A DNA stretch of 64,000 nucleotides. It comes from Parietaria judaica (Eukaryota > Streptophyta > Magnoliopsida > Rosales > Urticaceae). The notes under the pieces are model-generated. The model saw only the letters and a program-made list of their open reading frames with translations. It did no database searches and was not told the DNA's origin. Position 1 is the stretch's first letter, and every line of letters starts with the position of its first letter. The stretch covers positions 6,448,001-6,512,000 of the forward strand of contig OX940865.1 of assembly GCA_954871525.1 (NCBI GenBank), read 5' to 3'. Positions 11,571-64,000 of this stretch are shown piece by piece. The position numbers and the translations under genes are program-made.

Positions 11571-11579
11571 ATTGGTCTT

Positions 11580-13380
11580 CAATTTCCTAGAAAACCAAAC
11601 GCGTCACATATTGCATTGATGAACTTGAATTTGATATTTTAACTTTGTTCTTTGACTTTGATTTTTTTCTACATCCCGAAGTGAACAAGAAGAAAAGTGG
11701 TATATTGTTCTAGTGTGTTACATAGCACATAAAGACTTTTCTTTTTTTTCCTTATAGTTACTCGGATTACTTGTCTGATAATTAACTAGATTCCCGAAAT
11801 AGTACACTTAAGAACGGGAGATCGTAGTCACCAAGTTGAATTTGTTCTTCGATTGCAATCTTTCTCAATCCCGATTTAGAATTTTTTTTCTCGAAGGTTA
11901 TCGAATTACTTGCCTGACGCCAGAAAAAGCAAACATCTCTAACCTAGTTGCAATAGTTCATACGAAGAAATTTAGTCTAATAACTCGCAAGAAAGAGCTA
12001 TTTGTTCTTGGTTTGGGGCAATACACTCAGGGCCTCCTGAAGGATATGAACATATGAAATATGTAGCCACAAACAAGTCAAAATGGGTTTTTGACTTAGT
12101 AGTTCAATACTTACATCCGAATTGGGAAACAGAAATCGACTTAAGCAGATGCGCCAAACCATGGTACGTGTCTATTCTCGAGTAGTAAAAACGTCAAAGG
12201 AATCAGTCATATGATTAAACTTAACAAAGAATAACTACATTATTCTTCATAATTAACTTATCAACCAGAGAATTCGCAAAATTTTGCAGATTGGGGAAAG
12301 TGATGTTTATTAGGTAGAGACCACTCACTTCTTGCAGACCTAAAAGGTCTGTAGCCAACACTGTAGAATCCTATAGAGTCACACCGAACTCGCTAGAGAA
12401 AACAGAGTACGATGACTAATCTGCAGCGAAAAGTACTTCAGTTGCAACCTTGAGAAACCATGCATAGATGATTAAGAATGATGTACATGATAGCCATTCC
12501 CGACTTCTATTCTAATCATTGTATGCCCATGAATGTGCACGGGAAATATCCAATCCCGTTACGTTCGTGCAAGTGGGAGATCGTAGGTTATGTCCGAACC
12601 GGATATTGGATTCACCGGGTTCTCGGGTATTGGCTCGAACACATAACTAAACCGACGGGCCCACATAGGCCCGAGTATTAATTATGAGTGTATTAATTAA
12701 TTAAATAATTAATTAATTAAAACTTAATGAGCGTGATTAAAAGTCCATTAGGTTAAATGATAATGGGTATTATATATACTCATTTAAACATATAAATAGC
12801 CTTAATTCAAACCATAATCAGAGAGAAAAATTGACTTCCCTCCCTTATGAGCTCGAGTTTTGCTCTCCTCCCTGGTTCTTCATAGGTTTATCATCCAAAC
12901 ACTGAGGAGGATCTAACCTATCTTTCGAGGTGCTTTTTGGTTATCAAGACGTTCTTGCAGTGACATGGTGGACGAAATAGAGGCACTTCAATTGACGTGC
13001 TGCTGCCCGAAGAAAAGAGGAATCGACCAAGCCCTAAAATCGGCAAAAAATCGGCTTTTTGGTATAGTTGGCAAAAGTACCAAAGTTTGGTAAACTTCCT
13101 GAAACGATTTCTTAATCTTTGATATTAGTCTAGATCTTTATATGTTCGATGATATCCCGTGTTTTCCGCCTCGGGATTGAGAATAGTCATAAAAAGACCC
13201 AACATAAAATTTACTCAAATTATGTGAAGAGATTATTGTTGACGTAAGAATCTCACACCAAGAGTCACGAAAATCGTCGTAGGCTTTCCATTTGAATTTG
13301 CTGAAGGAAATTTGGATCTTTTCCTCCGTGCTGTCAATACTCTTGATGGCGACTAAAATATAAAAAAGCAATAAAGACAA
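11580..13380. other. Non-coding DNA with LTR-like segment
   Basis: No gene recognised. Positions about 12480-13020 look like an LTR or promoter-like repeat (TATAAATAG near 12793, pyrimidine-rich leader after it), but I could not delimit termini or a target duplication. The rest is featureless AT-rich DNA. Confidence 0.4.
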
Positions 13381-25183: not shown

Positions 25184-26242
25184 GGGTAATTAGCGAGATA
25201 AGTGGCCAAGGTTTTCGAATTTCCTTAGGCATGATGTCAATGCCTAAAAACGACGGCAAAAGTCCCCAATGTGCACTAATCACTCTAATCACAAAATTTC
25301 ATCCAACTAATTGGATGGATGTTAGTCAACTAATGATGTGGCAGCGTTGACCGCCACGCGGACAACCACATGGCATGCCACGTCATTTTTAATTTTTAAT
25401 TTGTTTCCACATCATTATTTAATTAGTCGTGATATTGTTGATAAATACAAAAATTTATTTCATATTTATTTTACTTTATTAAATTATCATAAGATGTAAG
25501 TATTTAAAACTCTTAAGTAGGATAATATTTACAATTTTAGTAGTATTTTCAGCAACTACCCGAAAATAAACTTATAAGTAGGATAATATTTACAACTTTA
25601 GTAGTATTTTCAACAACTAACCGAAAATAAACTTATAAGTAGGATACTATTTACAACTTTAGTAGTATTTTCAACCACTACCCGAAAAATGACGGATAAT
25701 AATCGAAAAGATATCTCACATATTAATGGATATGTTTGTTATTTAAATTGTTATATCCATTACATTTTGACAACAAATACCTTTGAAGTAGTAATTTAGT
25801 GCTTTGTTTATCTGGGTTTGGTCATGGTTCCAAAATACAAATAAAAAATATTTTGATTACTTATTTGGATGACACGTGGGACAGCTTAGGAAAGAGAGAA
25901 AGAGAGAGGAAGAGAGAGAGATAGAGAGAGTGTACACGTGGCAACGTGGGAGAGGGCGAGAAAATAAGTAGTCCCCGTAAAAAAATAAAAAATAAAAAAT
26001 AAATAAAAAAGACGTGGCAATATTTTATTTATAAAAAAGACGACATGGCGTGCCACGTAGATGTCCACGTGTCAGTCAACACTGCCACATCATCATTTGA
26101 CTAACAATCATCCAATTAGTTGGATGGAATTTTGTGATTAGAGTGATTAGTGCACATTGGAGACTTTTGCCGTCGTTTTTAGTCATTGTCATCATGCCTA
26201 AGGAAATTCGAAAACATTGGCCATTTATGCCGCTAATTACCC
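25184..26242. mobile_element. Long-TIR Mutator-like element, copy 1
   Basis: This 1059-bp element has about 200-bp terminal inverted repeats starting GGGTAATTAGCG and containing GACGGCAAAAGTCCCCAATG and TTGGATGGATGTTAGTCAAC. The interior has three tandem copies of a roughly 61-bp unit (about 25510-25690; word CTTATAAGTAGGATA) and a GA-rich microsatellite (25891-25930). Poly-A flanks prevent a clear target duplication. No transposase frame. Confidence 0.85.
25510..25690. repeat. Three tandem units of about 61 bp
   Basis: The block AAACTTATAAGTAGGATA...TAGTAGTATTTTCA...CTACCCGAAAA recurs three times inside the long-TIR element. Two units are seen, inverted, in the copy at 47.1-48.6 kb. Confidence 0.8.
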
Positions 26243-41230: not shown

Positions 41231-44200
41231 TCAGTGGGTGAGTCTCTGCAGCTCGTTCTGGTCATTTAGGGTTTCGATGAGGAGCGGAGGGGCGTACTGA
41301 GCGGTCCCCTGGTGCTCTTCGGAGTCTTGGCAGTACGAGAGGATGATTGTCTCGATCGACATCTCCACCACCGAGAAGAAGAGCGTGGCCACCACGTAGC
41401 CGAGGCCCCAGCAAACCTGAATGAGGAGCAAATGCGCTGTTAGGTTACGATGCAGATCCCGGGATCGGAAGTGTGTTAGCAGGGGTAAAAAGCGAATGCT
41501 TAAACTGCAAGGGCAGATTAGTCTTTTGGTATGAGGGTTTAATGTTTGGAGGAGAAACAACACGGTAGAGGAAAAGCAATTAATTAACATAATGAGGGCA
41601 GATTAGTCTTTTGGTATTACAGTTTAGAGGAGCAAATGTGTTGCAAGTTACTAAGCTCCCCCTGAATTGGAATTGTATGTTAGGAGGGGAAAAGCAAATG
41701 ATCAAGATCAACATAACGAGGGCATATTAGTCTTTTGGTATTAGGAGGGAGCAAACATGATAAAAGGTTACCACGGGGATTGGAAGTGTATGTTAGGAGG
41801 GAAAAGCAATCCTTAAAATAACAAGGGCGGATTAGTCTTTCGGTATTAGGGTTTAGAGGAGCAAACACATCGTTAAGTTACGCTCCTGCCCCCGGGAATG
41901 AGAGTTTATGTTAAGAAGGGGAAAGCGAATAATTAAAACCATCAAGGGTGAAGGACATAATGGTCTTTTGGTAGTTAGGCTTTCGGGTTTAGGGTGTAGA
42001 TGAATAAATTACAAACAGGTCGTTAGAATCGGAGGGAAAGTCATTATTAAACAAGGCATATAAGTCTTTTTTGTATTATTACGGCTAAGTTTCCATTTAA
42101 TTTTCTTGTTCTCGGAGGGAACGATCGGTCTCTCGAGTGACCAATCAATCATTACTTCAGGTACCCGCTTATCAATTTACGAACGATTTGCAGTTAGGTT
42201 CATACCAAGACAGGGAAGAGCGGGGACGAGATCTTGTTGTGGCCGCTGCTGTACTTGTGAGTGTCGAGCATGAGGAACGCAAAGAGCGCGCTCGAGAGGC
42301 CCACGCACAGCTTCCCAAGAAACAGAATTACGTCGCCGATCACGTTCACTTTCCCGATTCGCAAAATGTTATTCACGATCAACTCTGTCGCCATTGCCGA
42401 CGATTTACAGAAGCTCTTCCCTGAGATGGCGATCTGCAACGATACGACTAAACTATCAGGAATTTTCTGACTGAATTAACATATAAATTTAGTTACATGT
42501 GTAAATGTTTTTATAGTCTGACAACTAAAAGGAACTGTCCTCGTTAGGATTTTTGCGGCAAAAATACCTATAAATTAGGTGAAAGTAATTAGGTACCTAA
42601 TGATTAATACTTTTAATAATATCAGGAATATACTCAGCGACAAACAAAGAAGTGGAATATGCCGCCACATTTCTTATCATTTAGGTTTTATGCCGGCTGA
42701 TTTCGAGAATCTCGTAGTGTTCAAGAAGATCATCAGTTCAAAACATTGTGGATATGGTGGAAGTGAAGTCTAAAAATAACCATGATGTAGGCGTTCCGAT
42801 TCACCGATCTGATGGTCCATTCAATACACTTCAGGGAGAACTGAGAAACATGGTGAACCATCTTCCCGAACCCGTTATCGGGTGTCGCACTCGAAACTTT
42901 CAGCTTCCGACGGAGCGCCTCGAGCATGAACTGCACCGATTCCACGAGCGGAAGAACCAGCGATCCAAGAGCAACGGAACCGAGGCCGTACCGAATCAGC
43001 CGTTTCATTGACGAAAAGACCGGAAGAAACGGAATCTCTGGCTGCATTTTGAAAGTAACAATAGATATCAATTAAAGGACAAGAAAGTAACATTCTAAAA
43101 AGTTGTTCAATAATATTCAGAGCTAATGAGAATATACTAAAATGTCTAAAAAGAGGAAATAAATTATAAACCAAATCAAATTCTATAATAATTTTTAATA
43201 GACTATAGAGATTTTTGGGAAAATGACCAAAAGATATGTAAATGTGGCGGTATATTCCGCTTCTTTTCTGTCGCGGCGTATATTTCTCAAAGTTGTAAAA
43301 AAAAAAGGTGTGAATCCTTGGTGTACCCAATGAGTATATTATTTGTACCTAAGATTTAAATATAGGGAATATACGCCGTAAAAGAAATAACACCTGGAAT
43401 ATGCCGCCACTTTCACCTAACTTATTTACCGCAAATATCCTAAAACAAAATATAAAACCTAAGAATTTTCGATAACATTCACGATAACAGAGCTAGAACT
43501 TCTCGAATTAATAACAACATTATTCAATATTCTAGCATGTCTAAAGAGAGAAAACAAACTAAATCTAATTCTACTAGAAGAAAAAATATAATAATCCTAG
43601 TATTCGTCTACGACATTACCGATGTTTCACCACGGGCCCAATAATAGGAAGCAACGGAGCCCGCAATAATGGTGGACGAGCACGATACGAAGAACTTAGT
43701 GGCCCAGAAACCACCAAACAAGTGGAAGAGAATGGCAGCACCGATATAGCGAGTGTATCTAATGCTGAATCCGCAGCATTGGTCGCAGTTGACTTGCTTT
43801 GATACGAGATCGTATGTGCAGCAACTCGAACTGCAGTTGTTTTGGACGACCTCGCCGGAGCTGAAGAGATGGAAAGCCGCCGAAAACCAGATCATGAAAA
43901 ACACAGCGAGGATTGTGTACGGTATGAGTGGGAAAATTATCAGCGCTTGGACTTCTCCGATCACCTTCGCAGCAACCTGAAAGCAAGGAATCATTCGCCA
44001 AATGATTTTAACTCTGTTTTTTTTTATATGTACTTAATTTCTTTCCTAAGTTCCAAATTTATATTCAAAATAATCTACCGAACCGATCTTCATAAAAAGA
44101 AAAAATATATTAATAAGATTTTTTCATACGCGTTTATTATATGATAAAACGTTTTTTGTAGATCACACTTGCCTTCAGTACAGATGTCGCCATGAGGATC

Positions 44201-47508: not shown

Positions 47509-48628
47509 CCCCACATTGTCCCACGTGTCATCCAAATAAGAAGTAACCAAAATATTTTGTATTTATATTTTGGAACCCATGACCAAACCCAGATAAACAA
47601 AGTACTAAATTACTAGATCAAAAGTATTTGGTGTCAAAATGTAATGGATATAACAATTTAAATAGCAAACATATCCATTAATATGTGAGGTATTTTTTTT
47701 ATTATTATCCGTCATTTTCTCGGGTAGTGATTGAAAATACTACTATAGTTGTAAATATTATCCTACTTATAAGTTTAGTTTCGGGTAGTGGTTGAAAATA
47801 GTACTAAAATTGTATATATTATCCTACTTATAAGTTTTAAATACTTACATCTTATGATAATTTAATAAAGTAAAATAAATATGAAATAAATTTATCTATC
47901 TATTGACAATATCACGACTAATTAGCATAGCTACTGTAACTAGCTTATTATGATTAGGTAATAAACATGATGATCATAAATCTATAGAAATTTTAAAAAA
48001 TGAATAATGTGACTCGACTAACGTAAACCCTTTTGATTGTTCAGAAATTTTATACTTATCTTGATAAAGTCCAACTAAAACCAAACTTTAGATAATGTGG
48101 TCTACTTGGCATGCCAATTACACGGGATTATTTCCTATTGGTTTAGTTAATTATACTTATCTTGATAATCTCTTAATATGTTTGCTATTTAAATTGTCAT
48201 ATTCAGTACAATCTGTCATCAAATAACTTCGGTGGTTTAGTGTTTTGTTTCTTTGGGCTCTGGGTTTCAACCTTACAAAAGCAAAAAAAAAGGCTAGTGA
48301 TTTGGATGGCACATGTCATAGTGTAGGAAAGAGAAAATGGACACGTGTCAACGGGAGAAGGCGAGAAGAAAAGTGGGCCACGTAAAAGAATTGCAAAAAA
48401 AAAAATAACGTGGGAAATAAATTAAAAATGACGTGGCATGCCATGTAGATGTCCGCGTGGCGGTCAACACTGCAACATCATCAGTTGACTAACAGTCATC
48501 CAATTAGTTTGATGAAATTTCAATTAGTGTGATTAGTGCACATTGGGGACTTTTGCCGTCGTTTTTTGGCATTGACATCATGCCTAAGGGAATTCAAAAA
48601 CTTTAGCCATTTATGCCGCTAATTACCC
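47142..48628. mobile_element. Long-TIR Mutator-like element, copy 2
   Basis: This 1487-bp element has terminal inverted repeats extending roughly 450-500 bp (outer words GGCTAATTAGCGGCATAAGT and ATGCCGCTAATTACCC; inner words TGTTTGCTATTTAAATTG on both arms). Flanking 9-mers TAAAATGAA (47133-47141) and TAAAAAGAA (48629-48637) match at 8 of 9. The interior carries the 61-bp repeat units in inverted orientation relative to copy 1. A CT microsatellite lies in the left arm. Confidence 0.85.
47438..47507. repeat. (CT)n microsatellite
   Basis: About 68 bp of CT dinucleotide inside the left arm of the long-TIR element. It creates artificial Ser-Leu and Arg-Glu frames that are not genes. Confidence 0.95.
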
Positions 48629-48639
48629 TAAAAAGAACA

Positions 48640-50740
48640 TTAAAAAATTGAGATATCGAAAAGTGATAAAAAAAAAATCAATTGATGTTCTTTGCCTTTG
48701 GTGTTAAATTTAGTGTTGTGGTTGAAAAATAAATAGTATCACGAGTTAAAAAATTTATAAAAATAATAAAATTTCAATATTATTTTAATATTTGTAATTG
48801 GAGATGCTCTAATTGAAGAGTTAATCGATGTAAAAACATAATTTTTTGAAATTTGAAAACCTACATTGAAAAAAGCGGTTTCGGTAATGGTTCTGATTTA
48901 AATTCCCTGTTCCGATTCCGCTTACGGTTCTATTTTTAAAAATTCTCGGTTCTGATTCTAAATTTCCAGGTTCTAAAAGTGTTTGATTTAAAAATGACAT
49001 GTAGTTTTTGAAAAATTAGTAATTAAAAATTACACGTAGTATAAAAAACGACAACAAATATATATTACACCAAAAACGACATACTAAAAACTTAAAAATG
49101 ACATGTAGTTTAGAAATGGAATTGGTTCCAAAAACCGATAAATATTTTTTAGATACCGGTTCCAGTTCCCTGTTTTAAGCTAAATTTCCTGGATTTTTTT
49201 TAAAAATCGATCAAAGATGATCAAAGATCGATACCGAAACCGGGACACAACCGAGAAACGGTTACAAAATTTTCACCCATAATTGATATGAGCTCTAAGC
49301 CCGTAAGCCGACATATAACCTTTCTTACATAAATAAAGCAAGCCGTTATGGGATTATCTGTTTTAAACTATTAATGTAATTAAAGAAATATAATTAAGCC
49401 ATTATACACTGACAACTTTCAATGGACCACAATTCAAATAAGTATTATTTGCTTTTTACCCATACAATTAAAGATACAAATATCCATTGCTTTGTAAATT
49501 TGTATACAAATTACGAATTATTTAAGCGCACAATTTAATACGCTAATATCTTTATAAATTATTGTTTGAACAATAAAATTCATTTTATTATTGAGATTAT
49601 TAATATATTAAGTATAATTTGATAATATTGATTAGAACATGAATATGTAAAATTATAATTTAGACTTATACAGTATTAATTTAGCTACGTCTTATGTATA
49701 TGACAAAATTTGTGATTTGTTGCTGGTGTAACTCAGATAGATACTCAAGATTTCAAAATTTTTTAAATGGGTGAAAACAAGTACCAAACTTTGTAGGCTT
49801 TTAATTCCCATAGTTGGTTGGTAGTTGAGTATAAGTAATCATTTGATTACAACATTTTTTTTTTCTAAAACGGATATAGATTATGGGATTTTGATTTGGA
49901 AAAAAATCCCGAATTTGTATTTCAAATCAGAAAAAAAGAAGAAAAAAAACTTATTTTTATTTGTTATTTAATATGGAGCTTCATATGAAGATTCAAATTA
50001 AATTACATTTCAAATATGAGAATCTAGAACCTGAAATTTTGGATTTCTTCCGAAACCGGTTCCAAAAGCTTCCCAAAAAATTTCAATAAAATATTACATT
50101 ATTGGCCATATTGCTATCATATTGCAAATGTTCTTGTATAATTATTATGCTTCGCTTGCCATTGTTTTCACTGCACAATAATTTAGGACCCAACAATATT
50201 TTTTGGTGAACATATCGGGTTGGTACGACTTTCCTAAGTGGACTTATTGCAAGAATGACCTTATTTGAAATTTGATAGAAGTTTATACTATCGACATTGT
50301 TCACTTTGTCAATGCATACCCTTCATTAAACGAAGTGCGCTCGCAAATAAGGTTAAAGTAAATTTCACTCCTCTCTTATTTTATTGTATCTTTTTCTCGT
50401 TTCTCTTTCTCTCTCCTCTTATTTTATTATATTTCTTGCGCGCTTTTATTCCTCTCTCCTCTTATTATATTAATATTTCTTCGTGCGAACTTTCTTTCTC
50501 TTCTTTTTTTATCATTGATTTTCCCGCGCTATTCGTCTATTCGCCTTCTTCTCCGACTGACCAGTAGTAGAAGCCCTAAGCTCCTCTTCTCTCTTCGACG
50601 ATTCGCCATTTTTTTCTTTATCTCCTGCATTGCCCACTCAACGTTCGGCTCCCATTATTTTGCATCACGTAGCATCAACTTTCACGTCGAACGGTTCGTT
50701 GAAACTTGAAACTTTCACATTTATTATTATTCTTTGGGTA
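48640..50740. other. Gene-free DNA with a diverged hAT-like repeat
   Basis: Positions about 48870-49280 contain many GGTTCC / CCGGTTCC / CGGTTTCGG words in both orientations, ending TTTTCACCCATAATTG, similar in style to the hAT element at 21117. The rest is AT-rich, then pyrimidine-rich (50380-50600). No gene seen. Confidence 0.45.
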
Positions 50741-51449
50741 AACATGCTATAGCGGTACATCTTATGTATTAGCGGTAAATTATACTTCCAGAACTTTAGC
50801 TCAATACTACACTATATTGTTTCAATATAATAGGTACAAGACATTATTATAACGTAGCGGTATGACGTATCGTGATAATAAATAGTGTAGCGGTATCTTA
50901 CAACGTTACGGTATTACGGAATTTAATATCAATATCAGACAATATTGTTTCATTATAACCGCTATATGACATTGTGTATAACTTAGCGGTATTATGTACC
51001 TTCATACTAATTATTATAATGGTATCGTATAATGCTACGGTATTTGAATTCCAGGTTTGATTCCTTTCTGTTTTCTTGATGTCTCCGCACTTGCTGAGCG
51101 TCAGTTGTGGAGGAAGGTGGATATATGATTCTTATATGTGACAGTGGGTTGGACACCGAGACACGAGAACTTGTATTCAGGTTGAAACGTCTACATTGAA
51201 TGGATATGCTGGTGAAAGAGCTTCTCTACGTTCGTTGCAACATTTCAAGGCAACATGATTTGAAGGTAACTTATAAACCTTCCGGCAGTAGCCAACAGCT
51301 AGCCATTGGAAACGATACAGACCTGACAGCGTATTTATGGGACGCCGCTGGGTCGGTGTGGTTGGATCAATTATACATCGGTGTACTGGCAAATGAAGGT
51401 CATGAAGCTGAAAGAGAACGGTTCGTTCATTTCAGCGCGCCTATTGATA

Positions 51450-51600
51450 TGCAAGAAGATCGCCAGACCGATGTGCAAGAAGATCGCCCGATCAATGTTC
51501 AAGAAGAACGCCCGTTTGATGTGCAAGAAGATCGCCTGTTTGATGTGCCAGATTATCATCCCACTAATACGCTAGAAGATCGCCCGACTGATATGCCAGA
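51450..51600 (+). repeat. Tandem 8-9 codon repeat in the transposase N-terminal part
   Basis: Units of the type VQEDRPxD (MQEDRQTD, VQEDRPIN, VQEERPFD, VQEDRLFD, then degenerate PDYHPTN, LEDRPTD) repeat about six times in the linker before the DNA-binding region. Confidence 0.75.
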
Positions 51601-52619
51601 CACTAACTGTAATGATGACGATGTGATATTGTCAAAATTCATAGGGATGTCGAATTAATTTTTGGCACCAAATTCATGTGGTCCGAGCATTGATGGAGGA
51701 CAACTTCCGGCAGTTGGTTTTCGTGATGGTATGAATCTCGAACGTGGTCAGGAGTTTTCATCAAAGTTGGAATTGAAAAGATTTCTGGCCGAGGGTGCTT
51801 TCAAGGGATCCTTTGAGATGAGGTCAATTAAGTCTACAACAAGATTATACTCAGTCAGATGCCTAAATCGGAAATGCAGGTGGAGGATACGTGCAGCGCA
51901 GATTAGGAACTGTAACACGTTCACCGTACGGAGATATGAAAACACCCACACTTGTTCCGTTGCCGGCCGAAAATATGGCTATCGACAGGCCACTTCGTCG
52001 TATCTCGCTATCATGATCTCTAATACATTCCATGGTTGGAAACTACTTCCATGCACGAAAGTGATTTAGGACACTCTTTTAAATAGCGGTATCAATGTCA
52101 GTTCCTGGAAGGCTTGGCGTGCGACGTGTACCGCCATTGACAGGATGAAAAGTACCCCAACTCAGAATTACGAGTTTTTACCGGATTATTTTTATATGGT
52201 TGAAAAAGAAAACCCGGGTTCCCGTACCGCCATTAAGACTACCGCGGAAGGCCGTTTTTTGTACTGTTTCATGGCATTATACGCGTCAGTTATAGGATTG
52301 AAAAGTTTGAGGAAGGTGATTTGTCTCGACGCATGTCACTTGTATAGCAAGTACGCAGGTCTGTTACTCGTAGCAACCGCTATGGATGGCGATGGTCATA
52401 TTTATCCTCTTGATTTCGGTATAACAGACGCGGAGAACCATTTACCGTTGGTATGGTTTTTAGAACGGCTCAAAGAATCAATCCCGGATTAGGAAGACTT
52501 GGTGTTCGTATCGGATAGAGGGGGATCAATCATTCACGGTATACGTACAGTGTATCCGAAAGAACATCAAGGATCTTGTAATTATCACATCAGTTGCAAC
52601 TTGTGGAAGTTTGAGAATA

Positions 52620-52800
52620 AGGAGGAGGAGGAGGAGGAGGAGGAGGAGGAGGAGGAGAAGAAGAAGAAATCAACCCCGATCCCGATGAAGAAACCGCCGG
52701 CGTATCAAGTGATCCAAATCCCAATGAAGAAACCACCGGCGTATCAAGGGATCCAAATCCCGATGAAAAAACCGTCGGCGTATCAATGGATCCCGATCCA
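52620..52800 (+). repeat. (GGA)n run and 39-bp tandem repeat inside the transposase
   Basis: A GGA run of about 36 bp is followed by four units encoding, in the second frame, DPDEETAGVS, DPNPNEETTGVS, DPNPDEKTVGVS and DPDPDENN. It falls between CNYHISCNLWKF and KFKRWLMYNYWD, a place with no insertion in typical MULE transposases. Confidence 0.8.
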
Positions 52801-53609
52801 GACGAAAACAACTTGAAATTTAAAAGGTGGCTAATGTACAATTATTGGGATATAGTACGATCATATAAAGAGAAGAACTTTGAGAAAAGATGGGATGTCT
52901 TCAAGATTAAGTATCCACTTGCTGCACAATATCTCGTTGAACAAGTTGGGAGAAGATCCAATTGGGCAAAAGCATACTTCAGGGGGAAAAGGTATAACGC
53001 ACTGACTTCAAACAACGCTGAATGCATCAATAGTGTGCTGAAAGTAGCTAGAGGTTACCCTATTGTTACCCTATTATCGAGTCGTCCTCTCTAGTCACTC
53101 TGTTGATTCGAGCAAAGATACAAAAGAACGAGGTCAAATGTGAGACAATGAAGGCAGATAACATAAACGATGACAAGTGGGAAGTGACGACGAGTGGAAC
53201 ATAATTGGTAAGCCACCCCAAAGAGGCTGTGGTGATCGGTAGAAGAACGTGCACGTGCTTACATTGGCAAACTACGGAATACCCATGTGCGCATGCCGTC
53301 TTGGCACTCTCCGCTGCTGGGTTAAATCTTGAGAATTTCTATGGGAAATTCTTGAGTTTGGACAACTGGTCTAAAGAGCATTATATTGCCGTAAAACCTA
53401 TATCGCTACGTGAGGATTAGGAAGTACCTTCTCACATCCGTCAAGTCTTTGGGAAGATTACACCGCCGGATGTAGAACCCTGCAAAAAGGGACGAAAGAG
53501 GACAAGAAGATTCCTATCATTTGGGGAGAACGGAACGAAGTATAGGAGGTTCTGTAGAAAATGCTTGTGCGACGGGCATTATGCTTCAACGTGTACTATG
53601 TGAACTCCC

Positions 53610-54200
53610 TCTTTGTGTGTATGAACCTGGACTATGCATTAAGTTAGTTTGTTGATCTACAAAAATATGTGAACCTCATCTTCCCTTCTTATTTTTAAGA
53701 ACAAAGGATTCCTAGAACAGCGGTATGATAATAGCTATAAAAATTTGGACCATGGGAAGTTCAGGATTTCCGAACTTATCTAGAATGGTTTCTGAAGGAA
53801 GCATTCTGCAAAAACGTATAGCGGTATTCATTACATCCTTTAATCCTGAATAAATCTCCACAATAATCTGCAAAAAACGAGAAACAATAAGGGATCGTAT
53901 GGGAATACTGATAAGAAGCGTAAAATGAATGAAAATAATTATAATGCTTGTGAATTGTATAAGTTGACACCTGTTTTCTGCGTTTATTGTAAGTATGTGG
54001 TTCTAATAAGTTGGTGGGTCGTCTTTATTCACTGACATGTATTATTAAATTGGTGGTATTAATTACTGGTTCGTCTTCCCCGATTGGTATTAATTTGGTG
54101 GTTCTGTATGGGTTGACGGTTTGACTTTCCCGCATGCTTTCATATTTGTTTAAATATTTGTTTTACCACTACTTGTATAGAAAAATACCTATCGTGGGAG
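53610..54200. other. Non-coding DNA downstream of the transposase
   Basis: Carries two AGCGGTA motifs (53719, 53820). No gene recognised. Confidence 0.5.
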
Positions 54201-56340
54201 TACTATATTTGGTAGCGGCGGAGAGCATAAATTATACATGATTTCAAATGTTCTCGGATAAGTGGTTGGAGTCGTATAGTGCCTTTATTGCATGCACGTC
54301 GTATTTAATACTCGTTCTCCCACCAAACATGTTTAAACAATCACTCTTTCCCCAAGCGTCTATATAAAGAACAATCCCTTATACTAAAGTTAACATAAAT
54401 AATTAAATATATCCTAGTGTTCTCTCTCCATGATAATATTGTATTAATGCACCGCGCAAAGGTTCGTCAGCTGCTCCTCAGCAATATTTTATGTCGCCAT
54501 GCATTCATACATTATTTACAAGGAGGGGCAAACTTTTCTTGTAATTTCTCTTCGTTCCTGCAGGGATTCGGGTTTCGAATTCATGCACGTCTCTTGCGGG
54601 AAATATAGTGTAGCGGCAAGAAAAGGAAGCTGCAAGTTCTTGTGGAGGATTTATCTTTTGTTGACTCCAATACCTGTGTGATGTATTACCGAATTAAAGG
54701 AGTATTACCGTTACTTTGTAGATAATAGAGGTAGTTCTATGAGTGTTTAGCGGTAGTTATCCTCGGAGACTTATCTTGTACGAAAAACTATCTTAATTCA
54801 TATATAGTATCTTAATACATTTTTATGTTGAAATAAGAACGAGCTAATTGAGTTAAATATGCATTGCTTCACATTAAATATGTATCCCTTACAATTAGCG
54901 GTATACTAGCAGGAATTAATTACTCGAATTAGTGGGTGGCCAAGCACATTATGTTCCTTACACTTAAATCGAAGAGCTATCTCTTACATACCATCTGAAT
55001 CTTAAATTTTTAAGTAAAATCAAATACCGCTACTTCTTACTCTTAGCGGTAGTTCTAGGAGTGTCTAGCGGCAGCTAAGACAATCAATTAGCGGTATGTG
55101 GTTTAGATAGTAAAATTAAGGTTGTCAAGCATATTTACTAGTGTAATACCTTTTTAAGTTGAAATACACACGAGTTAATCGAGTGAAATATGCATCTCTT
55201 CACATATGTGTACGAGTGAAGGAGACTTGTTCTATGATCCAACAATCATGTTAGTTCATTTGTCATTCCCATTATCCTCCCATGACCCATCTAGATTACC
55301 ATTAGTTGTTACAGAGAATTTATTTATCCACACTAACGGTGAAATGAAGCAAACAGATGGAAACACAAACCTTCCCGCCTCTATTGTCTTCCCGCTATGT
55401 AACCGGTAGGTGTTGGTAAACCACCGCTACTAGAATACGTAGCGGTATACTAGCACGAATTAATTACTCGAATTAGTGAGTGGTCAAAACACATTATGTG
55501 CCTTTATTGCATGCAAGTGGTATTAACTACCGTCCAACTCCCCCAAGGCGTTATTAAAAAGAGAGGTAAAGTCTGTTGATATAAAATAATACGTAAATCG
55601 AAGAGCTATCTCTTATATACCATGGGAATCTTGAATTTTTAAGTAAAATCAAATACCGCTACTTCTTACTCTTAGCGGTAGTTCTAGGAGTGTGTGGCGG
55701 CAGCTAAGACAATCAATAAGCGGTATGTGGTTTAGATAGTAAAATTAAGGTTGTCTAAGCATATTTACTAGTGTAATACCTTTTTAAGTTGAAATACGCA
55801 CGAGTTAATTGAGTGAAATATGTATCTCTTCACATACGTGTACGAGTGAAGGAGACTTATTCTATGATACAACAATCTTGTTAGTTCTTTTGTCATTCCC
55901 ATTATCCTCCCATGACCCATCTAGATTACCATTAGTTGTTACGGAGAATTTATTTACCCACACTAACGGTTAAATGAAGCAAACTGATGGAAACACAAAC
56001 TTTCCCGCCTCTATTGTCTTCCCGCTATGTAACCGGTAGGTGTTGGTAAACCACCGCTACTAGAATACGTAGCGGTATACTAGCATGAATTAATTACTCG
56101 AATTAGTGGGTGGTCAAACACATTATGTGCCTTTTATTGCATGCAAGTGGTATTAACTACTCGTCAACTCCCCCAAGGCGTTTATAAAAAGAGCAATCCC
56201 TAACCCTAAACCATAGAATTATATCCATCATCTCTCTCCATGATAATATTTGATGTTCGTCGGCTGCTCGTAGACAATCTTTTATACTGCCGTGTATTCA
56301 TACAATATTTTCAAGGAGATGATGGTTTGCATCCAAGCAT
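54200..56340 (+). repeat. Nested direct repeats, including units of 544 and 628 bp
   Basis: A unit starting AGCGGTATACTAGCANGAA begins at 54897, 55441 and 56071. The copy at 55441-56070 is about 628 bp; the one at 54897-55440 lacks about 85 bp. The last partial copy runs on into sequence (GTGCCTTTTATTGCATGC, TATAAAAAGAGCAATCCCTA, TCTCTCTCCATGATAATATT) that is also found at 54290-54540. Each long unit has several AGCGGTA motifs. Confidence 0.85.
54360..54610 (+). other. Promoter plus 5' gene-end remnant, copy 1
   Basis: CTATATAAAGAACAATCCC (TATA-like) is followed about 65 bp on by TCTCTCTCCATGATAATATT and a frame including KVRQLLLSNILCRHAFIHYL and QGG. A matching segment at about 56180-56330 encodes DVRRLLVDNLLYCRVFIQYF and QGD, suggesting two decayed copies of one gene start. 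Parent gene unknown. Confidence 0.4.
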
Positions 56341-56345
56341 CTTCG
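56180..56345 (+). other. Promoter plus 5' gene-end remnant, copy 2
   Basis: TTTATAAAAAGAGCAATCCC and TCTCTCTCCATGATAATATT, then the frame DVRRLLVDNLLYCRVFIQYF, parallel to copy 1. The frame is not extended in either copy. Confidence 0.4.
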
Positions 56346-57165
56346 CCGTGTAAGCTTCGTTTCCATGATCCTCTTCGCTGTCGGCTTCTTGTTTCTTCGC
56401 CGTCGTGCTTCGACTTTGCAAGCTTCATTTCCGACTATGATGTAACGTATAGCGGTACTCAATATGTACTCGTTTTGTGATGTACTTTAGAGTGAAGAAT
56501 ATCTGATTATTTAATATGCTTCATTTTGTTTTGTACTTGATTGATGTTCCCGCTATTATGTACAGTATAACAGTACTCAATATTTACTCTTTGTGTCACA
56601 TATAGAGGTAGGAATATTATAAGTACCAAAATGCCCTTTAATCGATATAAATAGAAAAAAAACCCTAAAACAAAGCACAATTTGCAATATTTACTTGCCC
56701 GCCGCCTCCTCTCCTTATCTCTTTCTACATCTTCAATGTACTGCCGAATCTATGAGCACCAACTCCGGTATCGCATTACCAAAGTGTTAGCCAACTCATC
56801 TCTCTCAGTTAGTGTCTGACGTTTTGGTGATCCGATACCGAAGAAGGTGCTAGCGGTAATTTATACCGGTGAGCAGGTTTGATTGTCAAATACGATATAA
56901 TAGCTGTAACATAGCGGTAACGATTGAAATACATAGCAGTTTGATTGAAATACTACTATAAAGTACAGTAGTTTGTATTTGAAAGAAATACTACTATTTG
57001 TACCGATAGTGGTAAGTAAATAAAGAACTCTAAATGAGTAGCGGTAAGGAATTGAAACAACTTATATTAGCAGCAGTAACGAGGTAAAGCAAGTTATATT
57101 AGTAGCGGTAAAAGAGTAATGCAACTTATATTAGTAGCGGTTACAATACTAAGTTATACTAACTT
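56345..57165. other. Motif-rich non-coding DNA
   Basis: Six AGCGGTA or near-AGCGGTA sites between 56451 and 57137. A TATAAATAG sits near 56649 followed by AAACCCTAAAAC; no long gene follows. A short phrase (CTTATATTAGTAGCGGTAA-like) repeats three times at 57060-57140. Confidence 0.5.
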
Positions 57166-57169
57166 CTAT

Positions 57170-57408
57170 GCAAATCAATCGAAAACTTCCGCCAAATCCT
57201 TCTCGCGACGGAGAGCCTTCCGGACAGACGCCGCGTAGGGAAGACTGCTCTCGCTCGTGCAGACCAGGGGCGACAGGTACGGCGTCCCCGGGCCAACGTC
57301 CAAAAGAAGAGGACCACCGAGATCGATGTTTCCCCAGCCCATCCGCAACCCGGAGTTCTGGTAGGCTCTGTGAGGGAAGGGTTGTTGGACATATGTGTCC
57401 TTAAACAA
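57170..57408 (-). pseudogene. Coding fragment cut by the 57.4-60.1 kb retroelement
   Basis: A GC-rich patch with an open minus-strand frame (YQNSGLRMGWGNIDLGGPLL, VCTSESSLPYAASVRKALRR, KDLAEVFD) ending at a stop near 57175. It may be the 3' part of the minus-strand gene at 60134-60880, separated by the inserted retroelement; that link is an inference from strand, position and composition. The product is not recognised. Confidence 0.4.
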
Positions 57409-60115
57409 GATATTTATCCATTTGTAAAAGATTATGACAAGTCATTGAATAAAGATGGTACTTCTTATGATAATCTTATTATAGTTTCTGGTAGAGTAAA
57501 ATAGAATGTTTGATTCCTTAGTTCATAAAGGATGCAATTATGATATTATTATCACAACAGAGTCAATGTGAGGAAGAATTGATAATCATAATAAATGAAC
57601 TTAAAACGTTCGTGACCTGATTAACTGGGTGGGAGCCCATTAATCGTGTAAGGTCATTAATGTGACTAAGTGACAATCCTATTCTGGATTATGTGTATGT
57701 CACACTCACTAGAAGTGCATTAAGTGTGAAGTGTCTTCATACTGGACTGGATCTGACTTAAACTCAAAAAGTTATCATATAAGACCGTCACTGATAACTT
57801 GAAGTTGAGTCACTAATAGATGATCAAATGGATATTAGTTCTAAGTCCTGAGTGATCTTGAGTCCGAGTTACTGGCTTGATTGTTCTTTGATTTAACCGT
57901 TAAAGAGCACAAGATATTACCGCTGTTCCCAACACTATTATTTTGGGAACATGGGCATCACAGCTCTCTTTAGAGTCATGATGATTCCATTGATTGTCAG
58001 TGGTGAGAAGTAAGATGTACGCGTGCGCAACTTATGAATCGAAACCATAAGTGGGTTGCTCATAATATTACTGACTGAGTCAAGGAGGAAAATGCATTGA
58101 GAGGCATTACGGTAAAAACCGACTGCTCCTGTGTGAATCATCAAGTGAAAGAACAATAACCCGAATTTGATTGTATCAATGGACACCCTGCTGTATAAAG
58201 GGAATAATATATACTGTATCACTAAAGAGTGCAGCCTCAGGTCTATAGTGGAATCACTTCGAGGTTTGACGAACAACTAGCAGTTCGTTGGAGCTTAAGT
58301 GATACGAGTCCATGGTCCCCAGGATAGCTCCGTAACGGATGATACGTACGTGATTAAAATACATTCTGGATAATGTTTAATCATTTGGCTAGACTTATTA
58401 AACTGACAATTCTGTGGCAGACGTCAGATAGTTTTATCGCCAGCGTGGCAAAAGTACCATATTTTGATACACGAAATTAACTGATAAAACGAAAGTTAGA
58501 ATTTATATTTTCTATCAGCACCATGTTTTGTTAAATTAAATTTTAAGCAACTTTGCTTTTTGAACCAAGTCTTTTACACTTACGGTTTGTGATTTATGGA
58601 TTTTCTAAGTTTATGACTCGGTTCGATAAATTAGGAAATTAAATCACATGTCACGAATTTAAATGATGGTATGTCACCATGACATTTTAATGTGTGATAT
58701 TGAGATCATGAATTATTAATATAGTTTAATTATTAGGATTTAATTATTAATATCTTATTAATAATTAATTAATAATTAATAGATTTATATTAATAAATAA
58801 AATATATATTTATATATATTAAATGTGTAAAATTCGAATTAGGGTTTGGGTAAATGAAACCCTATCTAATTAGAATGATGAGATTTGAATATTTCATATT
58901 TGCGGCATAAGTATCTAATGTTTTTGTATTATAGCAAATCCCTAAAATCAATTTAATCCATTGGATCGGTCATGACTTAATATCAACCGTTGGATTGAGA
59001 TAATTGATTTAAACCCTAATGATAATTCCAAATTAATAGCTTGGTGACCAAGCTTAGGTATTTCGAATTTTCTTAATTAATTATATCTGTTGGATTGGTT
59101 TTAAGATTTAATCTTTACCGTCGGATTAGAAATTAATTAATATTATATATATATATATTATATATAATTCGAATAATAAAAGGATAATAATTCGAATTAG
59201 GGTTTTGTTAAAACCCTAGGGTATTTGATTTTATCCCTAATTCATTTGATCCATTGGATTGGTTTAAGATTCATTTTGAACCATTGGATCTAGATAATCA
59301 TTATACAACTCGAATTTTATATTATATACATATATATATATATATATGTATATATATATGTATATATATATATAATTCGAATTTAATAAAAATGATGATA
59401 AGATTAAATATTATGATCTTATCATGTATTTATCATTTAATTAAATCCCTGATTAATTATATCCATTGGATTTAGATGAGATTGAATGTGGACCATTTGA
59501 TTGAAATAATTAATTGAATTTTATTAGAAGAATTCGAAAAATGGGAGGGAAAATCTCCAATTCGATAACAGTCTGAGACCTATAAATAGGAGGCTTATTC
59601 TACACATTTTCACACCTTCCCCAGAGCAAAAACTCGAGCTCTCCCTCTCTCTTTCGGGTCTGCGAGTTTTCTGCTCCCGATCTCTTTTTCTTTTTCAGCT
59701 TAGGAGATATTATTCTCCGGTAGCTTAAAAAGATCCGTCTGTTAAATTTTGCGACGGTGTCCTGCCGGCAAAACCCACGCTTCGATACGAGGAGTACAGG
59801 AGAATATCCCGGAAGATCACGGGAGTTTTCCTCAGCATCGGCAGAGCCCTGCCTGAGTTCAGAACGCGCAGCCGGAATCGTCAATGATGTACGACCTTAT
59901 GCACTGGGTCAATAAATACAACCATTTATTACTTTCTATTTATTTCCTATTCGACTAGAATATTAATAATGTTTATGAAATATTATATTCGTAATATTTA
60001 TCGGATCTTGATGAAATGGTAATTACTCGATATCCGTGTCATCGGGCCGGTAACAAGTTTTCCGCTTTAAAATAATTTTTTAAATGTTACCGGGACGCCT
60101 CGGAGGCTACTTTCA
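57409..60115 (+). mobile_element. LTR-retrotransposon-derived insertion, copy 2 of the 20.2 kb repeat
   Basis: Positions 57480-58310 match 20200-21070. From about 58310 to 59900 follows an AT-rich stretch with a TATA-like CCTATAAATAGG (59580-59590) and a pyrimidine-rich leader, as in an LTR. The fragment has no gag or pol and is clean of AGCGGTA apart from one site. The exact ends and duplication were not resolved. A TA microsatellite lies at 59327-59372. Confidence 0.55.
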
Positions 60116-60133
60116 TGGTAATGAAGTCGGGAA

Positions 60134-60880
60134 TCAAACCCCAATTTCCAACAAGGGCCCCATGCGAGCCCATTCATAGAAAAGGCATGCATCCCGCAAA
60201 TTGCGGTAGCTTGTCAACTTGCCTAAGATGCGCTGACTGGGAGGGAGCCTGACTATAAAGGTGGCATATTTCCTGTATTTATCTAGACAATCGAATGATG
60301 CAAAGGTCCACCTCGGACTGGCGGTATGATCATGCAACTCCTCTGGCCCCGCCACGAAGAAGTACCGACTCGGTACACGGCTAAGTGCGTTGGCTTCTCT
60401 GTAGAGCACGGTCCCCCCCATATGGCGAATCCAGGGCCTCTCTGTAAGTGTGTAGAAGCCGCCTCCAAGTTCCTTCAATCCAAACAAACTATGAACATTG
60501 TTCTCCGTTCGACGCGGCAACCCGACTTGGTGTGCGAGGACATACAGCGCCGCAATGATCTGGTTGCTCTCCGGGACAAGCTTGAATGGGGCCAGACCAT
60601 TAGCCTTCAAAATCTCCATATACTCCGGTGCCAGGGGGAACGTCACCCCCGCCTCCAAGTGTTCTCGGCTCCATGCCGAGTAAGTTCGGCCATCGTCGTG
60701 CTTGTAGGTATGCTTGTACTTGCAATGAACCTTGTCTTTGAAAACATCCTTCCGGTCTTCATAATCAAACTTGTCGGGCAATGTCGCCTTCAGTTTCCCC
60801 CCTTCAAAGCCATAAAAACGGGCAATATCACTCAGTGTGGCTTCATCGGTGAGTGGAAGAACCCTTTTTTCTCGGTCCAT
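60134..60880 (-). CDS. Putative gypsy-type transposon domain protein (PF04195-like), 248 codons
   Basis: An intact minus-strand frame of 248 codons begins MDREKRVLPLTDEATLSDIA. Its centre (LEAGVTFPLAPEYMEILKAN, GLAPFKLVPESNQIIAALYV) follows the pattern of the plant 'putative gypsy type transposon' domain (PF04195): a phrase of the type FPLPPFVxxLLxxxGLAPxQLxPNxW. Such proteins occur in plant transposons with unknown role. The C-terminal end (FYEWARMGPLLEIGV) stops 19 bp from the retroelement, so the original gene may have continued into 57408-57170. No AGCGGTA motif lies within the frame, but one lies just upstream at 60999 and three more at 61171-61215. Within this motif-marked territory it could be an accessory protein of the Mutator-like element. 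Confidence 0.55.
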   Translation of the reverse strand: MDREKRVLPLTDEATLSDIARFYGFEGGKLKATLPDKFDYEDRKDVFKDKVHCKYKHTYKHDDGRTYSAWSREHLEAGVTFPLAPEYMEILKANGLAPFKLVPESNQIIAALYVLAHQVGLPRRTENNVHSLFGLKELGGGFYTLTERPWIRHMGGTVLYREANALSRVPSRYFFVAGPEELHDHTASPRWTFASFDCLDKYRKYATFIVRLPPSQRILGKLTSYRNLRDACLFYEWARMGPLLEIGV

Positions 60881-61164
60881 TGTGTAGATTTTTGGCGACT
60901 TACTCAGGGAAAAAGAGAAATAAATATAGACTTATGGACCGAGCTCGTAGCAGTTACCGAGACATCGAGCAAATCAAACGTGATTGATTGAGTTCTATAG
61001 CGGTAATCAATTACGATCATGATTATAGGAGTTGAAATCTCAAACATTTGTATTTTTTATTATTTATGCTCAATAAAGACTGTAACAACTGGAGTGAAGC
61101 GTGATACATATTTGACATGACGCGTTCGTCATCTTAAAAACACGTGGCATGTAAGAGTTGTATA

Positions 61165-61216
61165 ACAACTAGCGGTATCATTATCACCTAGCGGTATCAT
61201 TATAAACTAGCGGTAG
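61165..61216. promoter_or_regulatory. Three clustered AGCGGTA motifs between divergent genes
   Basis: CTAGCGGTATCATTATCAC, CTAGCGGTATCATTATAAA and CTAGCGGTAG stand in tandem at about 19-bp spacing, midway between the minus-strand gene at 60880 and the plus-strand F-box gene at 61452. Confidence 0.7.
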
Positions 61217-61451
61217 GGAGAGACCTCGTATAAGTTACTGAGACACCGAGCAACTCTACCGTCACAACAAAAAGGTTGGATCAGATCTGTGGCGGTTATG
61301 ATTACGTCATGGAAAATCTCAAGAGCCGTTTTAATTTAATTAAGCGCAGTTTGGATTTGCTATTTGAAAGGACTTGTCAGTCAGTGTCTATTAAGAGGAT
61401 GGTTCTACTTCCATCTTTGTAATATCAGAAATTGTAATATCAGAAACCACG

Positions 61452-62304
61452 ATGGAATACACGTCAGAGGACCTTCCCGAAGACCTTGTGCTCCACAAGA
61501 TCCTATCCGAACTGCCAGCAAAAATTCTGATGAGATTAAAGATCGTCTCAAAACGTTGGCTGGCAAGAATATCAGGGGGGGACTCGTCGTTCATCAACAC
61601 ACATCATATTCGACAGCGGACCAGAAATGGCCCACTCTTGATTGCCGCCTCCAAACGGGACTACCAACAGGTAATACTGCTGCTCTCCGGCCAAAGGGTG
61701 ACGGACATCAACGTGTCGTATCTTCATGCAGAAAATTACGAACACTTCGAGATAGTAGGCTCCTGCAACGGCTTGATATGCCTGTCATTCGGGGGGGATG
61801 GATACGAGACTCGTGATTTGGAATCCGGCGACTCGACAAGTGAGGCGACTTCCCGTTCCAACACCCTAATCACATGCCTTTCATGACACTGGTGTGTTAG
61901 GTTTCATCTATGACGTCACTATCAACGACTACATGGTCGTCCGACTTTGAGCAGCCAAGGATTTGATTTCCGTATGTGCACAAGTATTCTCTAAAAGAGG
62001 ACTTGCATGGAGAGACTATGGGTCCTTGACACTACCAGGGGAGCTTCGTTGGCCACGGGACCCGGTAACGGTGGATGTGGTACTTCATTGGGTTGTTCTG
62101 ATTAACCCCGGACAAAATAAATCATCATTCATTTCATTCGACTGGCGTCACGAGGTGCTTCGTCTTGATGAAACTCAACCCGTGCTTCCGACCGTAGAAC
62201 GGTTAACGATGGAGTACTGGTGGAGAAATGTATGGGGCGCAGAGAATGACATGTACGTTGAGCCCGCCCATAATTACGAGGAGAGCTTAGTCTCTGTATT
62301 TTGA
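61452..62304 (+). pseudogene. F-box protein gene (FBA-type), frameshifted
   Basis: The first frame starts MEYTSEDLPEDLVLHKILSE and continues LPAKILMRLKIVSKRWLARI, a clear F-box (about residues 5-45) that binds SKP1 in SCF ubiquitin ligases. It proceeds with FEIVGSCNGLICLSFGG, typical of F-box-associated domains. Then the frame slips: WNPATRQVRRLPVPTP, the expected continuation, is in the next frame (about 61818-61868). A further shift leads to GFIYDVTINDYMVVRL, a TGA (61947-61949), and DLISVCAQVFSKRGLAWRDY to the end (62304). So at least two frameshifts and one stop break it. Its intergenic position among AGCGGTA motifs suggests it was captured by, or inserted in, the transposon territory. 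Confidence 0.85.
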
Positions 62305-62309
62305 TTATT

Positions 62310-62935
62310 GGCGTGCATATTAGTTATGTATAGCGTTTATAAGGTTTCTAGCTTATTAGCGCAACAACTTTTTATAGCGGTAACCTAATTATTTCGTAAT
62401 ACTTATGTCGTATGTGTCACGCTTTGAAATATCGGTAAAAGATAGTTTTTGTTAACGGTATAACAACGATTGTTCACAAATAGTTATATGAAGTTTCTGT
62501 TTATTGCTCGACGGTTTAAATTTAAGTATATTATCTTGAATGTATAGCGGTATACTTAACTTGGTAACAACGGTATAACATTTTACTAGAGGAGATAGTA
62601 TCTGAGAATGAAAAAACTATATTATCTCGATTGTATAGCGGTAGACGCACATTGGGTAATAGAGGTATTAGCAAGGCTGTATCATTTTACTAGAGGTTAT
62701 AGTATCTGAGAATGAACCTAGCGATAGCCCTTGGGGCATCGATAAATATGTTATACAGATTGGCAAAACAAGTTAATAAAAAAACATAAACTTACTCGTA
62801 CATCGTAATTAAACAAGGTGAATAGAGAACATACTTGTCCAAAGTAATAAGCATAGTTACCACATACTGGTCCAACGGTCCAAACAAAATAGGTAACAAA
62901 ACGTAGTCAAAATATTACAGAGCTTATATAGAGTT
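62310..62935. other. Motif-bearing intergenic DNA
   Basis: Three AGCGGTA sites (62376, 62546, 62637) and a repeated phrase TTTTACTAGAGG-GATAGTATCTGAGAATGA (62580-62610 and 62687-62715, written in two parts). No gene. Confidence 0.6.
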
Positions 62936-62939
62936 AATT

Positions 62940-64000
62940 CTAAAGTTGGAACGACCAATTCGTCCAGATTTCCATCACGTGTAGGGACCGGGCTGAAGGT
63001 ACTAAACGGTCAACTATCGTAATAGGGTGGCATCCAACCATGTCTAGTTCTATGAACTTCATAGCAAATATTCCAGAGTCAACAGGCCGGTTCCAATCTG
63101 GCCCTAAGGTGCGCCTCCATGTCCAACGCCGGTTCTTGAGATGTGCACGGCATGGTAATGCAGTCAAGTTTGACGCTTCCAAAATCCAAGGGAAGTAATC
63201 CTCTAGATCCCGCAATATCATTGACATCTTATATTCACTACCGTAGTTCGGCCGAGGAATAAATAAGTTAAACCGCGCTGTTTCGAAATCAGCTGTGCAT
63301 GCTATCCATTGACCGTAAAAATAGATCGGGAAGTACAGCTTGTCCACGTTTTCCCACGCTCGACCGTAAAACCTTGGGATGTCTCCTGATACCGAATCTA
63401 TAGACCAAAATCATCAACTTCCAGTGAACCGGTACGGATATTCCCATTAATGATAGTCACTAGCATCATGAAGGAACTGTCGACTACAGCGATTACATCG
63501 GAATTGGGAATACTTCCGGGAAAAGTAGCAAGTCGCTTACGGAGCCCGTAGGTGATCTCGTCAATGAACTGCATTTAATATCAATGAATTGGTTACAACA
63601 AATAATAAAAAAAATATAGAAATATTGCCATCGAAGAATTATTACCCCGTCGTCCAGCGACCCATCACGGTCAACTAGAGTATGAAAAAAGGCCCGGTCG
63701 TATTTTCTGATACCACATACGACGGGCGTGGAAGCTTCTTGATCCAACCACCGGGTGAACAGGCGTTCGAGGTACTTCGGTGATGGTGAGAGTGGCAATA
63801 GATTCGGGTAACAAGCTTTATCTCCATCCGAGTCCGAGTCCGAGTCCTCGCCAGCCTCAGCACCAGGCTCAACATCTGACCCGCCGCCTGGCTTAGCATC
63901 TTCACCTCCAGGCTCACCATCAGACGCACCATCTTCACCTTCAGACTCTCCATCTGCCTCACCGCCGCTGTCACTCTCCACTGGCATCTCCACGTCACTA
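62940..64000 (-). pseudogene. Ulp1-like (C48) protease-domain gene, catalytic residues lost, partial
   Basis: The minus-strand gene enters from the window edge with an acidic region (ESDSGGEADGESEGEDGASD), then KYLERLFTRWLDQEASTPVV and RDGSLDDG with a donor (63645). The next exon starts FIDEITYGLRKRLATFPGSI (about 63570). A one-base shift near 63400 is needed to join FGL to IDSVSGDIPRFYGRAWENVD KLYFPIYF. The rest is the Ulp1 core: GQWIACTADFETARFNLF and WNRPVDSGIFAMKFIELDM, ending SFQL. C48 proteases need His-Asp-Cys; here the HW position reads QW, the YDS position reads FIP, and GDCGVF reads VDSGIF. Ulp1-like genes are carried by several plant Mutator-like families (KI-MULEs, VANDALs). Either a dead enzyme or a repurposed domain. 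Confidence 0.7.

Follow-up and report, generated by a model that had tools for sequence, protein, structure and literature searches.

An exact, co-oriented eight-base word marks a degraded MuDR-type element in Parietaria judaica and may be the target of an anti-silencing protein

What is the role of a short word that recurs, almost always in the same direction, in a single 12-kb territory of the Parietaria judaica genome? The territory lies toward the right end of the stretch analyzed here (the window: 64,000 nucleotides, positions 6,448,001 to 6,512,000 of contig OX940865.1, assembly GCA_954871525.1), and it contains the relic of a MuDR-type transposase of a Mutator-like element (MULE). An earlier note on this DNA had described a motif, YAGCGGTAN, and likened it to the target word by which an Arabidopsis VANDAL element is recognized by its own anti-silencing protein, VANC. 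We find that the repeated unit is the 8-mer TAGCGGTA and that within the window it is confined to the element. It is probable, in our judgment, that the territory is the relic of a large MULE of the VANDAL/KIU kind and that TAGCGGTA is the target word of a VANC-like anti-silencing protein encoded by the element.

The window contains 32 copies of the core AGCGGTA against an expectation of 3.65 (standard deviation 1.95), and none of 100 shuffles reached 32. All but one of these copies lie within 50751-62643, 28 on the plus and 3 on the minus strand, which is exactly the count given earlier for the 12 kb; the accompanying remark that none was noticed elsewhere in the window has to be amended by one copy, at position 44923. 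The base before the core is T in 26 of the 28 plus copies, C in one and A in one, and the base following the core is free. The core and the free last base of YAGCGGTAN are therefore retained and its initial Y is not: with T nearly constant before the core, TAGCGGTA is the true unit. This 8-mer is present 26 times on the plus and twice on the minus strand of 50700-62700 and on neither strand in the other 52 kb, so the proposed regional specificity holds within the window.

The same word emerges without any word being chosen beforehand, ranking first when 8-mer counts inside and outside 50700-62700 are compared. With no filter, TAGCGGTA is seventh among the same-strand 8-mer clusters within 12 kb over the whole window, and the six ahead of it are all runs built from no more than two letters (TTTTTTTT, TCTCTCTC, ATATATAT, TATATATA, CTCTCTCT and AAAAAAAA). 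Among 8-mers with at least three different letters and at least two G or C, the filter also applied in the simulations, the next unrelated word has 7 copies. Likewise, when the 64 possible AGNNNTA words are compared over both strands, AGCGGTA reaches 28 within 12 kb and the runner-up 7. Markov simulations of the region (300 per order, with a training sequence that includes the motif) yielded TAGCGGTA on both strands with a mean of 0.31 and a maximum of 3 at order 2, and a mean of 2.17 and a maximum of 7 at order 3. After removal of an insert resembling a long terminal repeat (LTR), the commonest filtered 8-mer never exceeded 7 copies in 200 simulations of order 2 or 3. A text search of the literature for TAGCGGTA returned matches whose titles, among those listed, looked unrelated.

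The 28 copies are distributed as follows, with coordinates counted from the first base of the window.

50750 to 50991, plus strand: 5' array of five copies (50750, 50770, 50855, 50888, 50984) over about 240 bp, upstream of the transposase
52084 to 52091, plus strand: the sole exact copy in coding-relic DNA, within the transposase
53718 to 57141, plus strand: central non-coding territory with 13 plus and 2 minus copies, holding a 630-bp duplication and a 32-bp tandem array
60998 to 61215, plus strand: third array, four copies (60998, 61170, 61189, 61208), the last three forming a 19-bp tandem repeat
62375 to 62643, plus strand: fourth array, three copies (62375, 62545, 62636)

In agreement with the earlier remark that the motif falls almost entirely between genes, 27 of the 28 copies are located in the non-coding gaps (5205 bp, insert left out) and one in coding or coding-relic DNA (5325 bp; P = 8.5e-8), the coding borders having been set by us from open frames and Pfam hits. 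The orientation is strongly biased (26:2, P = 3e-6) and remains so when one unit of the 630-bp duplication is dropped (24:1, P = 1.5e-6). It is also independent of gene strand: the transposase and an F-box piece are on the plus strand, and an orphan open reading frame (ORF) and a Ulp1-like piece on the minus strand. TAGCGGTA is absent from the nested LTR-like insert (2771 bp), which serves as an internal negative control, and from the remaining 50,699 bp of the window.

What kind of element carries the word? Judged by its protein domains, the carrier is a degraded MuDR-type MULE, with the following transposase.

51200 to 53602, plus strand: degraded MuDR-type transposase with DBD_Tnp_Mut, MULE DDE domain and SWIM finger, and a C-terminal CX2CX4HX4C motif read by eye

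In neighboring open pieces of one frame, Pfam detects DBD_Tnp_Mut (8e-12) and part of the MULE domain (3.1e-5, under the cut-off); the latter rises to 1.9e-12 on a piece read through two TAG codons, and SWIM (1.5e-7) is found in another frame at 53205-53417. These matches bear out the MuDR-type transposase that had been proposed. The N-terminal piece (51200-51655) shows a sub-threshold match to Plant_all_beta, and the CX2CX4HX4C piece has no Pfam hit. The relic is interrupted by in-frame TAG codons at 52067 and 52490 and by further stops, and its frame shifts twice, once at or close to a GGA microsatellite and a second time around 53050-53090. This microsatellite is pure (52620-52657, about 13 units) and adjoins the DDE domain, and a 39-bp repeat of about three units (52679-52808) follows on its 3' side.

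With the read-through piece as a query, four protein matches were found, all from plants by name; with an alignment as the query there were 79, the four included, and the best identity was 44%, to an Arabidopsis lyrata protein over most of the length. In a tree built from 29 sequences out of the 80 (rows picked by us, P0005 and P0064 being dropped from a first choice of 31), the transposase, flagged as a long branch, groups with two proteins (90/75) beside Brassicaceae transposases (84/91); the tree contains no labeled VANDAL reference, and the Brassicaceae group is not labeled as VANDAL. Three pattern matches to the transposase in viral contigs gave no confirmed case, and the 5' half of the territory (50740-57200) had no match in plasmid records. 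Within the window we found no convincing terminal-repeat pair or 8-11-bp duplication at the element ends, and the right end may lie beyond 64000; VANDAL elements are marked by terminal inverted repeats that are short or absent and by a 9-bp target-site duplication. The copy is without an intact transposase frame and may still respond in trans, should there be an intact relative.

Several anti-silencing systems are available for comparison. According to the accessible text of PMC5735166, VANC21 binds YAGTATTAY in Arabidopsis VANDAL21, a nine-base word that is dense, in one orientation and non-coding and around which methylation is lost; its high density is unique to VANDAL21, and the targets of VANC6 carry the words AGTTGTCC and AGTTGTAC. 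RNA-directed DNA methylation acts on the same non-coding parts, and VANC1, another VANC whose targets are its own, acts on VANDAL1, 2 and 22 (PMC10398659, accessible part). The VANDAL transposase group combines a Mutator-type DDE domain with a SWIM (and CCHC) finger (PMC6446971, accessible part). Ulp1-bearing VANC genes, named KIU (Kaonashi), act on motifs in KIU-carrying elements, as described in the portion of PMC13317346 at hand, which dates the capture to the monocot/eudicot separation (citing Sasaki et al. 2022) and credits the same authors with motif-specific anti-silencing by Ulp1-carrying VANC in Mu-like transposons of eudicots.

The Parietaria territory resembles VANDAL21 in that a MuDR-type MULE bears a short exact word, dense, co-oriented, mainly non-coding and, within the window, clustered only in the element. 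The frame AG-NNN-TA, noticed earlier as YAG-NNN-TA, is common to YAGTATTAY and TAGCGGTA, and it is shared by AGTTGTAC of VANDAL6/8, a second case of a family-own word, whose middle bases differ from those of TAGCGGTA. The territory differs from VANDAL21 in having CGG for TAT, so that TAGCGGTA contains CG, in having most copies outside tandem repeats (some lie in the 19-bp and 32-bp arrays and the 630-bp duplication), and in a transposase only 44% identical to its best match.

If a protein encoded by the element reads the word, where might its gene lie? The other parts of the territory are these.

60154 to 60931, minus strand: upstream part of the orphan ORF (beginning MDREK), with a weak sub-threshold match to Transposase_28 (E = 0.02)
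57150 to 57382, minus strand: downstream part of the orphan ORF, severed by the LTR-like insert, frame uncertain
57383 to 60153, no strand assigned: nested solo-LTR-like insert of 2.77 kb, TGTTGG...CCAACA, with flanks AGGGT/AGGGC (4 of 5 alike), interrupting the orphan ORF
61452 to 62304, plus strand: F-box gene fragment with a frame break and no motif; Pfam F-box 1.1e-5 in 61395-61883
62943 to 64000, minus strand: fragment of a Ulp1/C48-like gene that includes an acidic stretch and extends past the window edge; a candidate for a gene of the KIU/VANC type

At the right edge, the C48-like piece (62943-63410) is followed upstream by the acidic stretch and more open pieces up to the window edge. 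Together with the motif-bearing non-coding DNA, this putative Ulp1-like gene would, if it lies inside the same element (no right end was found), be the point of likeness to the KIU MULEs described in the accessible part of PMC13317346; the fragment differs in being weak, cut by the window edge and altered at the expected catalytic positions, where it reads QW and DSG (by eye). On the last point, because QW and DSG replace HW and DCG, the piece is probably inactive as a protease, with Gln for His and Ser for Cys. Active C48 proteases carry HW and DCG. A PDB sequence search with the piece gave one match (E 0.95), taken as chance. Single-sequence AlphaFold models were too poor for use, with a mean predicted local distance difference test score (pLDDT) of 35.9 for the Ulp1-like piece and 34.0 for the orphan ORF.

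The orphan ORF (60137-60931) had no match among 1284 candidates at E 0.001 in a search of a large protein set. When the flanks of the LTR-like insert are joined, it becomes a continuous frame of 310 amino acids (309 with exactly 5 bp dropped). Joins that drop one or two more bases likewise stay open over a long distance, and because all three minus frames are open in 57150-57382, the frame of that part is uncertain and the continuity is weak evidence. The insert itself contains one CAGCGGTA on the minus strand. The F-box fragment (61395-62304), which sits between two motif arrays, is possibly a captured host gene.

How could such a word serve its element? In the anti-silencing reading, a VANC-like protein encoded by the element would bind TAGCGGTA as the address label of its own family, a role ascribed to the word because of the analogy with the targets of VANC21 and VANC6. 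Many same-direction copies in the non-coding gaps would allow the protein to coat the element, and elements of that family only, and the bound protein would remove or prevent DNA methylation, which would permit transcription of the transposase. The pattern would have been selected while the family was active. The first candidate for the binding protein would be the Ulp1-like gene at the right edge, and the second the orphan ORF. It is conceivable, if rather doubtful, that the word belongs to a separate VANC-type lineage with a CG in its target, in which the protein could perceive methylation at the site it reads and its binding would be switched by the same mark that it removes; AG-NNN-TA would then be a common scaffold carrying an interchangeable code of three letters.

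The spacing of the word adds a hint in the same direction. Distances of up to 150 bp between copies peak at about 10.6 bp (V = 0.51, 18 pairs; P = 0.019, jitter test), the highest V across all periods between 5 and 25 bp, and the next separate peak is 0.44 at 6.5 bp. The Rayleigh test at 10.5 bp gives P = 0.029 for pairs to 150 bp and P = 0.004-0.007 to 250 bp. This spacing suggests binding on one face of the helix, as a hint only, because the pairs are not independent and several distance cuts were tried. Helical periodicity is reportedly treated by Sasaki et al. 2022 (EMBO J), together with gain and loss of DUF1985, DUF287 and Ulp1 and about ten systems in Arabidopsis.

Can the pattern be explained without a dedicated anti-silencing protein? 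The word might be an unselected remnant of ancient tandem duplication, since some copies are embedded in repeats (the 630-bp duplication at 54962-56193, the 32-bp array at 57021-57141 and the 19-bp array), and VANC targets too evolve through tandem repeats (PMC5735166, accessible part). A neutral repeat, however, should lose its core and its flanks at the same pace. In this element 26 sites show the exact 8-mer, whereas the flanks of these plus copies (16 + 16 bases) have a median identity of 0.28 over 325 pairs, near chance, and just 8 of the 325 pairs, the 630-bp duplicates and short arrays among them, exceed 0.55. Because the flanks are mostly unrelated, the array is not part of one older tandem repeat, the origin that the earlier note had held up against its own proposal. 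Judged from the sequence, an exact word amid differing surroundings is the pattern expected from selection on TAGCGGTA, and a purely duplicative origin appears very improbable.

It might also be argued that the transposase of the element itself binds TAGCGGTA, as with the terminal or subterminal repeats of other DNA transposons, and that the word serves excision, not anti-silencing; the relic does include a MuDR DNA-binding domain, and the transposase is directly preceded by the first array. However, end-binding sites are expected to cluster at both ends and usually to face each other. The copies here are scattered over all four non-coding gaps along about 12 kb with 26 of 28 co-directed, which is unlike such sites as far as can be judged with no convincing ends found in the window, and we regard this explanation as unlikely. 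We give equally little credence to the view that the transposon genes recruited a host promoter element or transcription-factor site, with no protein of the element reading the word. Arrays do occur upstream of the transposase and the orphan ORF and adjoin other ORFs, yet the copies share one direction regardless of gene strand, 13 plus copies extend across the 3.4-kb central gap, and the other 50.7 kb of the window is devoid of TAGCGGTA, whereas an element of the host would be expected at host genes too.

The anti-silencing reading has to be held against several observations that weigh against it. An order-4 Markov model, trained on the array itself, gives some 8-mer up to 25 times against the 26 observed. 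Sequences one mismatch away from TAGCGGTA do not favor either strand (14 plus and 14 minus within the region, 10 plus and 11 minus elsewhere), and with the insert removed the 27 such forms in the element are 14 plus and 13 minus. For pairs within 100 bp the Rayleigh test finds no significant periodicity at 10.5 bp (P = 0.31). The CC-type word AGTTGTCC of VANC6 lies outside the AG-NNN-TA frame, and since the likeness of frames was judged post hoc it could be due to chance. The Ulp1-like gene named earlier is represented by a Peptidase_C48 match (62943-63410, minus strand, Pfam) with E = 0.0029 and 17.9 bits, below the 20.7 cut-off, in a fragment cut by the window edge. A search for a VANC-like gene in this copy was negative: unlike VANDAL21, the region gave no DUF1985 or DUF287 hit (Pfam, E up to 1) in 10 + 4 ORF pieces, a scan of 14 pieces that left out the minus piece 57150-57382 and in which the right-edge gene is cut by the window end. 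Finally, a single copy of the element is seen in the 64-kb window.

The CG inside the word was also considered in its own right. The CpG observed/expected ratio is 1.82 in 50700-51050, 1.04 in 1-50000 and 1.05 in the element, and among the 27 one-mismatch forms two are C-to-T changes at the CG of TAGCGGTA and none is a G-to-A change there. The scarcity of CG-decay variants was tried as a sign of methylation protection and rejected, since the window is without CpG depletion: with a ratio of about 1.04, counts of CG variants say nothing on methylation protection. The lack of CpG depletion is unusual for a methylated plant genome.

Elsewhere in the window, a 61-bp tandem unit is present at 25507-25688 and, inverted, at 47720-47837. 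The sequences bordering the two sites are also similar, left and right, and by this resemblance the two sites are probably copies of one repeat family. A Copia-type reverse transcriptase fragment lies at 11221-11586 (minus strand, RVT_2 1.3e-15). A choline-transporter-like exon at 43611-44033 (minus strand, Choline_transpo 1.9e-21) apparently belongs to an ordinary host gene near the element.

What, then, would the locus mean? The possible new target code for anti-silencing that had been suggested is reasonable as a hypothesis but less new than it seemed, Ulp1-carrying VANC systems being described in the accessible part of PMC13317346. As far as the available portions of PMC5735166, PMC13317346 and PMC10398659 go, what is new is the word TAGCGGTA and the CG inside it. 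Because KIU genes with Ulp1 are described already in that part of PMC13317346, motif-marked MULEs with a Ulp1-like gene are to be expected in other plants, and the kind of system is known. If the reading of TAGCGGTA as an anti-silencing target is true, such a word would be readable from raw plant sequence as an exact, oriented, non-coding and MULE-limited word, and TAGCGGTA would join the words of VANC21 and VANC6 as the sole one of these with CG; methylation-sensitive binding is therefore testable. TAGCGGTA and its protein would then be a possible tool for locus-specific demethylation, as is proposed for VANC in the accessible text of PMC5735166.

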